Of a DNA stretch of 64,000 bases, positions 23,482 through 29,716 are shown piece after piece. Both the position numbers and the translations under genes were made by a program. Where the stretch lies: assembly GCA_026982335.1 (NCBI GenBank), contig JALSHH010000044.1, positions 64,085-128,084 of the forward strand. Reading direction: 5' to 3'. Source of the stretch: Phycisphaerales bacterium (lineage in GTDB: Bacteria > Planctomycetota > Phycisphaerae > Phycisphaerales > UBA1924). The notes beneath the pieces are model-generated. The model worked only from the letters and a program-made list of their open reading frames with translations. It did no database searches and was not told the DNA's origin. The number at the start of each line of letters is the position of its first letter. The stretch's first letter is position 1.

Positions 23482-24200
23482 ATGAAGCATGCGAAACATT
23501 GCATTATACTCGTTGGCATCGGAACTCTGGCCACAGTGGCTTCTGCTTGGCTCAGTGCGTGGGTCACACCACCACTCACCAATACACTTCACCATGGCGA
23601 ATCGGTACTGATTCCATGGATCGACTCAACCCCATCTCATTGGCCGACCCTGCCTGCCAGAACAATCTATCAATCTTCTCGCCGAATTTCAAACAATGTC
23701 ACCTGGCCTCCACGATCATCACGATTGTGCACTCGACAGGGAATGCACGAAGACGTTGTCGCTGTATAGAACGGTGTTGGATTCAATTTCCAATTTACCG
23801 ACGACCAACCTGAGTTTGTACTCGATCAGTATCGATCAGGTTGGCCAATAAATTCGATGCAGTATCGTGGCCCGGATGATTTGAAACCTTCATCGTCTCA
23901 CTCGCTGGTTCGCCTCCACACCAATGGCATCCCTGTCTTTGCGTTTGAACCTTTGGGACTCCAAGCAAATCGCATTTTGCCCTTAAACCCCCTTACCCCC
24001 TTTGGAGAGCACGCGGTGTGAACATGATTGTCTTTGCGGCCTTTGCAGAGTTTATTTGACAACTCTGGAAACTGCCCCTGCGGATTCGACTCAGGAACAG
24101 GAAGCACAAAAGACTTTGTGTGGCGTGTGGGTATGCGGTGGAGGATTTGGAGATTTGTCAAGAGTGTGGATCAGATCACGCGGCTTGTTCGCCGGGTTGA
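23482..24200 (+). pseudogene. Decayed planctomycete-type zinc-ribbon membrane protein gene
   Basis: A 95-codon frame starts MKHAKHCIILVGIGTLATVASAW (a membrane anchor), stops at a TAG (23767-23769), and then stays open in the same frame to 24021, giving ...VFAFEPLGLQANRILPLNPLTPFG. From there homology-like content moves to another frame: LWRARGVNMIVFAAFAEFI, a TGA near 24055, then QLWKLPLRIRLRNRK and the ribbon CVACGYAVEDLEICQECG. This succession (signal/anchor, LPL-P-L-P motif, TM segment, basic stretch, CxxCGY...CxECG) is what I recall of a common Planctomycetes hypothetical family. One amber, one frameshift and one opal fit a pseudogene; sequencing error could explain at most one. Confidence 0.7.
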
Positions 24201-24838
24201 TCGTCTGGTTGATTGCCGAAGATGTTTTTGGGGCCGAGTTCGGGGCCGAAGAATCGGAGGTCATATTTGGTGCGGGCTTGTTCATCACTCAAAACGGCGT
24301 AGGCCTTTTGGATTTCTTCAAAGTATTGGGCAGCTTGCGGATGATCATTGATATCGGGGTGCCAGGCTTTGGCCTCTTTGCGGTAGCTTGCTTGGAGTTC
24401 TTCTTTGCTGGCATATCGATTTGAGCCGAGGACTTTGTAGAGGTTTGGGTAGGCGACTTGGATGTCTTTGTCTTTGGCAAGCCCCATCTCGCCATGGACT
24501 GCCAGGCGGATGATGGCTTCGCGGGTTTGGGGATCGAGTTTAACAAATTCAACCCCGACTTCGCCTCTTCGGGTAAAGAGGGTTGCTTTGCGAACCCATT
24601 TGACGGTACCTGTGATGGTGAGCTCGCGTTGTTCGTCCGTGAATGTGTAGGACTGGATATCACCGATCTCGGGAAGATCTTCGGGTTTGACGATCATGCG
24701 CATGCCCGAGCCAGTGATGTCGGCGATGCGTCCGAGTGAGCAATGGAGCCCATCAGTCCAGAATCGAGACTCTCGGCGTGTTTGATAACCTGATTGTTGA
24801 AGTTTGGGCGTTTTTCGATCTGATGGCGAGTCACTCAT
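24176..24838 (-). CDS. PilZ-J-domain fusion protein
   Basis: The 220-residue protein joins two domains. Residues about 15-110 look like a PilZ domain: RRESRFW at the start, then RIADITGSGMRM with the DxSxxG-like turn, and VKWVRKATLFTRRGEVGVEFVKLD. Residues about 125-195 form a J domain: NLYKVLGSNRYASKEELQASYRK, then the HPD motif in WHPDIND. PilZ domains bind cyclic di-GMP through an RxxxR and D/NxSxxG pair; the first (RRESR) is good, the second (DITGSG) is degenerate. The J domain should stimulate an Hsp70. I chose the ATG at 24838 over a TTG three codons upstream. Cyclic di-GMP control of a chaperone is inference. Confidence 0.8.
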   Translation of the reverse strand: MSDSPSDRKTPKLQQSGYQTRRESRFWTDGLHCSLGRIADITGSGMRMIVKPEDLPEIGDIQSYTFTDEQRELTITGTVKWVRKATLFTRRGEVGVEFVKLDPQTREAIIRLAVHGEMGLAKDKDIQVAYPNLYKVLGSNRYASKEELQASYRKEAKAWHPDINDHPQAAQYFEEIQKAYAVLSDEQARTKYDLRFFGPELGPKNIFGNQPDDQPGEQAA

Positions 24839-24937
24839 AAGGCCCAAAGCGACACAATCGGCACATGACTTTGCCTGAATCGGTCAAGAAAACCCAACAG
24901 GATGCGGGTTAGGACGGCAAGAGGCGTGCCAAGCTGT

Positions 24938-24943
24938 TAGAAT
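24938..24943 (+). promoter_or_regulatory. Leaderless-type -10 element TAGAAT (ALDH operon)
   Basis: TAGAAT ends 6 nt before the ALDH ATG at 24950, and the spacer GGGGGC leaves no separate leader, so transcription would begin at or next to the A of ATG. Confidence 0.45.
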
Positions 24944-24949
24944 GGGGGC

Positions 24950-26455
24950 ATGAGCATTGTGAGCAAACCATCCGCTTCAAAGATTGAAGCACCGAAAAGA
25001 CTTGATCTGCGGGCAGCAATCGGGGGCGGGATCTTTGAATATGCCCCAGCGCCCGAATCTGTCCGTCCGGAGATCGCCGATCAATATGGATTATTTATCG
25101 GAGGTGAGTTTATCGAACCGATTTCCGGCAATCACTTCGCAAGTATGAACCCGGCTACTGAGGATACGCTTGCGATGGTGGCGGATGCTTCGTCTGCCGA
25201 TGTTGATCGAGCAGTGCAGGCTGCTCGCGATGCCCTGCCGGCATGGGCAGGATTGAGCGGCAAGAATCGGGGAAAATATATGTACCGCATCGCGCGAAGA
25301 ATGCAAGAACGCGCCCGTGAACTGGCGGTGCTCGAAACACTCGATGGCGGCAAGCCAATCAAAGAATCACGCGATGTCGATGTGCCATTGGCAGCAGCCC
25401 ATTTTTTCTATCACGCAGGTTGGGCAGATAAACTCAAGTATGCCTTGCCCGGGCGCGATCCCAAACCTGTCGGTGTGTGCGGGCAGATTATTCCATGGAA
25501 TTTCCCGTTGATGATGCTCTCGTGGAAAATCGCCCCCGCCTTGGCGTGTGGGAATACGGTGGTGCTCAAACCCGCCGAGACGACTTCGCTCACAGCATTG
25601 CGGTTTGCACAGATTTGTCAAGAGATCGGGCTGCCAAAGGGTGTGGTGAACATCGTCACGGGCGCAGGCGAAACGGGCAAGGCGATGGTTGAGCACCGCG
25701 GCATTGACAAAATTGCCTTCACGGGCTCAACCGTGGTCGGCAAGGCGATCGCCAAGACGGTGGCTTCGACGAAAAAGAAACTCACGCTCGAACTCGGAGG
25801 CAAAAGCGCGAACATCATCTTCGAGGATGCTTCGCTCGATCAGGCGATCGAGGGGATTATCGAGGGTATCTACTTCAACCAGGGGCATGTGTGCTGCGCC
25901 GGATCGAGGCTGTTTGTGCAGGAGTCCATTCTCGATCGGGTGGTGGACAAACTGACCGATCGGATGAGCACGCTTCGGGTTGGTGATCCGATGGATAAGA
26001 ACACCGATGTGGGCGCGATCAACTCGAAAGAGCAACTCGACACGATCGAACGATTCTTGGCGACCGGTGAAAATGAAGGTGCGACGAAGCATGATGTATG
26101 CCCATCGACACTGCCCGAGAAGGGATATTGGTGCAAACCTTGTTTTTATACGGGGGTGCAGCCGAGCCACACGATCGCGCGAGAGGAAATCTTTGGTCCG
26201 GTCTTGGCGGTGTTGAGTTTCCGCACGCCAGATGAGGCGATTTCACGGGCGAATAACTCGCCGTATGGGTTGGCTGCCGGTGTGTGGACGGATAAGGGGT
26301 CGAAGATTTTCGATGTCGCCAAAAAACTCGACGCGGGGATTGTCTGGCTCAACACCTACAACAAATTCGATCCCACGAGTCCGTTTGGCGGGTATAAAGA
26401 ATCCGGATTCGGGCGCGAAGGCGGACGACACGGATTGCTGGCCTATTGCCAGTAA
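24950..26455 (+). CDS. NAD(P)+-dependent aldehyde dehydrogenase, catalytic half of an ALDH16-like locus
   Basis: The 501-residue enzyme oxidises an aldehyde to the acid. It has the cofactor and oxyanion Asn in IIPWNFPLMM, the FTGSTVVGK loop, the general base Glu in LELGGKSAN and the nucleophile Cys in GHVCCAGSR (Cys315/316). The C-terminal SPFGGYKESGFGREGG is the usual tetramer contact. The substrate is unknown. Three genes run head-to-tail: this one, a GNAT acetyltransferase, and a 282-residue ALDH-like protein without catalytic Cys. In ALDH16 proteins such a truncated domain is fused to the C-terminus of the catalytic domain, so the locus looks like a split ALDH16. Confidence 0.95.
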   Translation: MSIVSKPSASKIEAPKRLDLRAAIGGGIFEYAPAPESVRPEIADQYGLFIGGEFIEPISGNHFASMNPATEDTLAMVADASSADVDRAVQAARDALPAWAGLSGKNRGKYMYRIARRMQERARELAVLETLDGGKPIKESRDVDVPLAAAHFFYHAGWADKLKYALPGRDPKPVGVCGQIIPWNFPLMMLSWKIAPALACGNTVVLKPAETTSLTALRFAQICQEIGLPKGVVNIVTGAGETGKAMVEHRGIDKIAFTGSTVVGKAIAKTVASTKKKLTLELGGKSANIIFEDASLDQAIEGIIEGIYFNQGHVCCAGSRLFVQESILDRVVDKLTDRMSTLRVGDPMDKNTDVGAINSKEQLDTIERFLATGENEGATKHDVCPSTLPEKGYWCKPCFYTGVQPSHTIAREEIFGPVLAVLSFRTPDEAISRANNSPYGLAAGVWTDKGSKIFDVAKKLDAGIVWLNTYNKFDPTSPFGGYKESGFGREGGRHGLLAYCQ

Positions 26456-28628: not shown

Positions 28629-29312
28629 TCAGGCGGCCTTTTTGCCTGTTTTTTCGGGCTCTTCTTCAGGAATGGCAATTTCATATGAACGGATCAGGAA
28701 GTGCCCACCGATCGAGAAGAGGACGCCGAGAATCACCCCCCCCAGGAGAATCAGGATCATGCGGATTGGACTTGGCTCACCCGAGGCATCGGCGACTGTG
28801 GGCATACCTTTGAATTTCATCCAACCCAAAGCCGCCATCACTGGGGCGAAGAAGAGAATACTTCGCAGGGCCAGCGACCATGAGCGTGTGTCTCGGCGGT
28901 ACACATCGAGCGTCGCCAAGAAACTCAACACGCCGATGGCGCCGAATCGGAACAGGAGTGTGCGATTGATCCACGGGCCGATCTGAGGGTCATCGCCAAC
29001 AACTGCCCGTGCATCGACATGAATCCCGAAGACGGCCCCGACGAGGATGGTTCCGATGAGGCAAGCAACAGCCATGGGAAAAGCCTTCCCAACCCAAATC
29101 TTGCCCAGTGAAGCCAGGATCGTCATCAGACACCCGAGCAAAAGAATTGCCTCAAACCCGAACATACCCCATGCGAATCCGCCAAATTTCCCAAAGGCCA
29201 TCCAAATCCAAGGAAGCGTAGAAACAACGACCAGAACGCAAACGATCAATGTCGCCGAGCGCAACGGCACAGAAGAAGCATTCTTCAAACTAGACTGGTC
29301 ATGTATACTCAT
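28629..29312 (-). CDS. Polytopic membrane protein of unknown function
   Basis: This 227-residue protein has about six hydrophobic segments (for example LIVCVLVVVSTLPWIWMAF, EAILLLGCLMTILASLG, AVACLIGTILVGAVFGI, LLFRFGAIGVLSFLATL, ILFFAPVMAALGWM and MILILLGGVILGVLFSIGGHFLI). An EEEPEKTGKKAA tail follows. No family motif is obvious to me. The ATG at 29312 is used rather than a TTG one codon upstream. It probably shares a transcript with the DUF4230 gene downstream; divergent fliD begins 404 bp away. Confidence 0.75.
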   Translation of the reverse strand: MSIHDQSSLKNASSVPLRSATLIVCVLVVVSTLPWIWMAFGKFGGFAWGMFGFEAILLLGCLMTILASLGKIWVGKAFPMAVACLIGTILVGAVFGIHVDARAVVGDDPQIGPWINRTLLFRFGAIGVLSFLATLDVYRRDTRSWSLALRSILFFAPVMAALGWMKFKGMPTVADASGEPSPIRMILILLGGVILGVLFSIGGHFLIRSYEIAIPEEEPEKTGKKAA

Positions 29313-29716
29313 CAATGTATCCCAATCAAGAGAGTATGCCTCACTGCGTACGATCCACGCTGGGGAGTAATCGGCACCATGGAATGATTTGTGTGATGAT
29401 TTGTAGGCATGAGGTGGATATTAGCAGACCAACCGTGTGAATCAGGTACTTGATTTGTGTGTCGGCAATTTTTGCGCAATGACAAGGCAAATCCTTATCG
29501 GTCGGGCGCACAACACAACTTCTCTTCCCTCAACCCAAACCATAGCGACCATAGTTATCGATTCGGTGAATCTCAGTCGAGAATGCCCCGCTTCTTACCC
29601 GATAGAAACGATGGCATGAATTTTTCTGGGCATGGGCCCGGGGGTGGGCTGGCGACAAGCAATCGCCCCCAAAGAAACTTATTCAGTTGAGAGCACTGCT
29701 CAAAAGGAGTTGAGCT
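29313..29716. other. 404-bp intergenic region upstream of fliD
   Basis: I see no convincing gene here. It holds three copies of TGATTTGTG or a close variant (29385, 29397, 29451), and GGCGA/TCGCC that could pair near 29652-29668. AAGGAG lies 8 nt before fliD. I could not fit a sigma-28 or sigma-54 promoter to consensus. Confidence 0.6.
29385..29461. repeat. TGATTTGTG direct repeats in the fliD upstream region
   Basis: Copies lie at 29385-29395 (TGATTTGTGTG), 29397-29406 (TGATTTGTAG) and 29451-29461 (TGATTTGTGTG). They could be operator half-sites for fliD or the divergent membrane gene; this is speculative. Confidence 0.35.

Follow-up and report, generated by a model that had tools for sequence, protein, structure and literature searches.

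The minus strand of the window (the whole 64,000-nucleotide stretch of DNA analysed here) encodes a small protein in which a PilZ domain is followed by a J domain (Table 1). The host is a planctomycete of the order Phycisphaerales. A previous sequence-only reading had placed a PilZ-J fusion at this position, and its coordinates and motifs stand: the open reading frame starts with an ATG at 24838 and reads down to 24176 on the minus strand, and its 220-residue translation contains RRESR (residues 21-25), DITGSG (residues 40-45), VEFVKLD, NLYKVLG and HPD (residues 160-162). There is also an in-frame TTG 9 bases further upstream, at 24847. The ATG start is backed by an aligned Met in the nearest named relative, a Phycisphaerales metagenome-assembled genome (L035) whose protein is 86% identical to that of the window across its whole length. 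A promoter scan of positions 23900-25100 was uninformative and found none.

On the plus strand, the end of a zinc-ribbon-like open reading frame (CVACGYAVEDLEICQECGS; window 24080-24200) converges on the fusion gene and overlaps its last 25 bases. No clear ATG start is seen for this reading frame. L035 carries about three copies related to it downstream of its own fusion.

Table 1. The fusion gene and its parts, in window positions
Feature	Position	Strand	Extent and basis
PilZ-J fusion gene	24176..24838	minus	220 residues plus stop; open reading frame, translation, Pfam PilZ and DnaJ matches
PilZ part	24491..24784	minus	Residues 19-116; Pfam PilZ match (36-112) plus conserved RxxxR upstream
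RxxxR motif (R21 and R25)	24764..24778	minus	R21 is Arg in 82/88 and R25 in 88/88 aligned fusions
D-x-T-x-x-G motif (DITGSG)	24704..24721	minus	Residues 40-45; aligned fusions
J domain	24260..24445	minus	Residues 132-193; Pfam DnaJ, whole profile
HPD motif	24353..24361	minus	Residues 160-162; sequence, intact in 83/88 fusions
C-terminal Ala-Ala	24179..24184	minus	Residues 219-220; candidate ClpX-type degron, tail ...GEQAA

Conservation of the fusion within the Phycisphaerales

Domain searches bear out the identity of both halves. The Pfam PilZ family (PF07238) matches residues 36-112 with an E-value of 2.4e-9 and a score of 37.9 bits (cut-off 22.5), and the DnaJ family (PF00226) matches residues 132-193 over its full profile, HPD included, with an E-value of 1.7e-19. 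The sequence-only reading had named the lack of any PilZ match as a ground for refutation, and this ground falls away. No other domain exceeds the Pfam cut-offs, and the 220-residue protein has neither a zinc-finger nor a DnaJ C-terminal domain. RxxxR itself lies outside the PilZ match, which begins only after it since the protein's first strand is shorter than that of the profile. As to the six-stranded barrel fold of PilZ domains, an AlphaFold model made from two sequences only was of low confidence (mean pLDDT 39, pTM 0.30).

The fusion also recurs in other genomes. It is present in 19 of the 21 same-genus genomes in a search of 60 relatives, and the two genomes without it are 56% and 61% complete. 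We then used a profile built from 27 members and counted as full-length only matches that span both halves: of 300 genomes sampled from the order, 84 carry the fusion, and these belong to five families (f1, f2, f3, f5 and f6). Among the matches listed from 392 genomes across the phylum, those spanning both domains all belong to the same order and those listed outside it cover the J-domain part only; this search scored up to seven candidates per genome and could miss a divergent fusion elsewhere.

The fusion proteins are compact, at about 200-230 residues. All 27 aligned homologues match both Pfam families, with 29-86% identity to the window protein. Because the fusion recurs in 84 of the 300 genomes of the order, and at these identities among the 27 aligned, it is not a chance event, and the PilZ-J fusion is confirmed as a genuine single protein. 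That it is an artefact of misassembly, a frameshift or a chance motif in another SH3-like fold is vanishingly improbable: the late start of the Pfam PilZ match and a PDB profile search that gave only a weak PilZ match (Alg44, E 0.2) speak for such an origin, but the frame is open in 84 genomes of five families, every one of the 27 scanned members matches both families, and the motif columns show little or no variation across 88 fusions.

The surroundings of the gene are less constant. Within the window's genus, and in a few genera close to it, the fusion gene has a divergent aldehyde dehydrogenase gene upstream and convergent genes downstream; in other genera its neighbours are different. Since the neighbours are conserved among close relatives only, the fusion is kept as an independent unit. 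Reading the locus as an operon would point to deoxyribose or aldehyde metabolism; we rejected such a role because other genera have other neighbours.

Ligand-site and HPD motifs

We aligned 88 distinct fusions with MAFFT and ranked the columns of the PilZ part by relative entropy with sequence weights. G45 is Gly in all 88 fusions; D40 is Asp in 84 of them and Asn in 3, and at position 42 there are 68 fusions with Ser and 19 with Thr. R25, D40, G45 and S/T42 rank fourth to seventh of the 98 PilZ-part positions, and six of the 88 fusions lack the first Arg of RxxxR. The second PilZ motif had been called degraded in the sequence-only reading, a description that the alignment does not sustain because its columns are among the best conserved of the domain. 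Measured against the consensus [D/N]xSxxG, DITGSG replaces only Ser with Thr; Ser or Thr occupies this position in 87 of the 88 fusions, while D/N and G are essentially invariant. The DxTxxG form is that of the window protein and of its genus. PixB of Myxococcus xanthus offers a precedent for tolerance at the Ser position: its PilZ domains are without this Ser, yet the protein binds c-di-GMP in vitro (PMC8316039). From the conservation of these residues, we think it probable that the PilZ part of the window protein binds c-di-GMP.

In the J domain, H160 is the most conserved position across the 88 fusions, and the members that carry HPD very likely stimulate DnaK. Five fusions (G010, G015, G018, G444 and G450) have lost HPD and have kept RxxxR and D-x-S/T-x-x-G; therefore DnaK stimulation is not essential everywhere. 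Three of them belong to the window's genus (L012, L013 and L014, from G018, G010 and G015), with NGD, NGA or GGD in place of HPD and with the PilZ motifs and the C-terminal Ala-Ala retained.

Class C J-domain proteins combine an HPD-bearing J domain with a specificity domain and lack the G/F and zinc-finger regions of DnaJ. The window protein resembles them in pairing an HPD-bearing J domain with a specificity domain, and differs from other proteins of this class in that its specificity domain is of a second-messenger receptor type. GGDEF proteins occur in all 61 genomes searched, with five in the host, and in the host sample one protein reads as GGDEF-EAL and one as HD-GYP. The host has two strong Hsp70 matches for DnaK (3.5e-265 and 6.2e-164) and three further PilZ proteins. 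The coupling of c-di-GMP to the Hsp70 cycle that had been put forward for this gene is thus plausible.

Ala-Ala ends of c-di-GMP proteins

The window protein ends in Ala-Ala, as does the host's tmRNA tag, AEPQYALAA. This ending is a property of the family: 61 of the 88 fusions end in Ala-Ala and 11 in Ala-Gly, position -2 is Ala in 73, and position -1 is Ala or Gly in 82. From -3 to -12, no single residue exceeds 42%. Neighbouring genes conserved between loci end in Ala-Ala in 9 of 499 cases and in Ala-Ala or Ala-Gly in 14 of 499. Among predicted genes in about 470 kb of host sequence (a 390-kb sample plus the window, with genes called by a simple longest-ORF procedure), 13 of 391 end in Ala-Ala. 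These two backgrounds and the contrast with positions -3 to -12 rule out a chance origin of the Ala-Ala end; the p-values of the tail contrasts ignore kinship and are descriptive only.

Which other proteins carry this end? Seven of the 13 host genes read as signalling or sensory regulators: the PilZ-J fusion, a PilZ-receiver protein, a GGDEF-EAL protein, an HD-GYP protein, a receiver-HTH protein, a hybrid histidine kinase and a B12-binding protein. A globin is a possible eighth. For the order as a whole, sets of PilZ and GGDEF proteins were chosen by domain score before their tails were inspected. Of 60 non-fused PilZ proteins from the order, 44 have the Ala-Ala end; of 30 GGDEF proteins (L273-L302), 6 have it and another 7 end in Ala-Gly, which makes 13 of 30 with either. 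The loci concerned for the non-fused PilZ proteins are L001 (G000:C25:4127-4462), L003/L104 (G000:C44:56508-57653), L183-L212 and L233-L272.

About 4-8 kb before the window start, at G000:C44:56508-59684 (L104:6509-9685), the gene for a PilZ protein that carries a receiver-like part precedes, on the same strand, one for an apparent hybrid histidine kinase; both proteins end in Ala-Ala. Within the window, a predicted membrane protein of about 228 residues (28629-29315, minus strand) also ends in Ala-Ala, and it has no Pfam match.

E. coli ClpXP depends on the terminal Ala-Ala carboxylate more than on any other element of the ssrA tag (PMC7652416), and the tail of the fusion is like the ssrA tag in this respect. 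The distribution of these ends suggests that they may be built-in degrons of a ClpXP type in the c-di-GMP network of the Phycisphaerales. For the window protein itself, we regard ClpX-type turnover as an evenly balanced prospect. Of the 21 genomes searched, 19 have a ClpX that scores above the cut-off for the family. None was found in the host assembly, which is 92% complete; an assembly gap is the most likely reason for its absence. The sole zf-C4_ClpX match in the host is a small 116-residue protein beside a CheW-like gene. Single c-di-GMP enzymes are known ClpXP clients, namely PdeH of E. coli and PdeA of Caulobacter (PMC7652416, PMC12974527). In the Phycisphaerales, by comparison, the Ala-Ala end, a candidate degron, extends across a whole class, the PilZ effectors. 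A literature search, with few subscription papers in its reach, found no earlier report of the Ala-Ala feature at the C-terminus of the fusion.

Candidate functions and known relatives

What might the fusion do? Judged from its motifs and their conservation, the likeliest reading, at about even odds, is that the window protein is a class C J-domain protein which responds to c-di-GMP and directs DnaK to a client. The protein would be soluble, with the PilZ part acting as receptor and client-selecting domain and the J domain as the recruiter of DnaK. c-di-GMP made by the host's GGDEF enzymes would bind across RxxxR and DxTxxG, and binding would either alter the partner held by the PilZ part or free the J domain. 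The HPD-bearing J domain would then engage DnaK and hand over the PilZ partner, so that the folding, stability or assembly of the client would track the level of c-di-GMP. The amount of the adaptor would probably be set by proteolysis through the C-terminal Ala-Ala, as may be true of most PilZ proteins of the order. The part of this scheme in which c-di-GMP controls the J domain could go either way. That the fusion stays whole in 84 of the 300 genomes while its neighbours change speaks for the scheme. The case for ligand control is weakened, by analogy, by the finding in M. xanthus, the closest case studied, that the PilZ protein CdbS is a client of the chaperone CsdK2 independently of c-di-GMP binding (PMC10313047).

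The main rival to a c-di-GMP-responsive co-chaperone is that the PilZ part serves as a localiser: it would dock on a fixed partner, such as the flagellar switch, another PilZ protein or a membrane site, and bring the J domain and DnaK there, with little or no role for c-di-GMP. The CdbS-CsdK2 interaction is equally a point in favour of such docking, and some PilZ domains, for example that of PlpA, do not bind c-di-GMP (PMC8316039). A flagellar partner would be compatible with the presence of FliG in 83 of the 84 genomes with the fusion versus 144 of the 216 others (p 4e-11, descriptive and with kinship ignored). However, this association disappears inside family f1 (p 0.37) and may reflect lineage only, and we have dropped the flagellar link as evidence. 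A pure docking role is also hard to square with ligand-site residues that outrank nearly all remaining PilZ-part positions in conservation, and we consider it unlikely.

A second rival keeps the c-di-GMP effector and makes the J domain an interaction module or a decoy, with DnaK stimulation dispensable. The five fusions that lack HPD and keep both PilZ motifs, three of them in the window's genus and with Ala-Ala ends, are what such a role would predict, but HPD is intact in the other 83, the window protein among them, and its His is the best conserved residue of the J domain. This alternative is therefore more improbable still than docking.

The nearest known counterparts of the fusion are in M. 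xanthus, where four of 24 PilZ proteins in a survey carry a DnaK or DnaJ domain (PMC8316039). CsdK1 and CsdK2, PilZ-DnaK chaperones that stabilise CdbS (PMC10313047), account for two of these; by subtraction, therefore, M. xanthus has two PilZ-DnaJ proteins, for which no deletion phenotype is reported (PMC8316039). The fusion is like these M. xanthus proteins in joining PilZ to one member of the Hsp70/J-protein pair, and thus is not new in kind. In a likeness drawn by description only, it differs from the M. xanthus PilZ-DnaJ proteins in its phylum, in forming a compact order-wide family and in its Ala-Ala end. It shares with CsdK1 and CsdK2 the placing of a PilZ domain on the Hsp70 machinery. 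However, those two are Hsp70 proteins themselves, whereas the window protein, in which Pfam matched no HSP70 domain and which is thus not of the CsdK type, is a co-chaperone with a J domain and would have to recruit DnaK as a separate protein. A literature search, with subscription papers largely outside its reach, found no study of a PilZ-DnaJ protein. What is new here is the conserved, order-wide PilZ-J family and its C-terminal Ala-Ala feature.

Why would a PilZ-J protein with such an end matter? If the co-chaperone reading is true, the choice of chaperone clients would be controlled by c-di-GMP through one small adaptor made of a receptor and a J domain, which would be the simplest route to such control and an easily testable one. 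So far, the c-di-GMP proteins known to be degraded are single enzymes only. A second idea open to test comes from the shared Ala-Ala ends: built-in degrons may keep an entire class of second-messenger effectors short-lived. The combined proposal, in which the c-di-GMP network of the Phycisphaerales is tied to proteolysis as a class and PilZ-J is its c-di-GMP-gated DnaK co-chaperone, is tentative and somewhat doubtful. If it is true, the Ala-Ala and Ala-Gly ends on most PilZ effectors and many GGDEF enzymes would mean that second-messenger output is limited by ClpXP turnover, and the PilZ-J protein would be the point at which a proteolysis-wired c-di-GMP network reaches the DnaK system.
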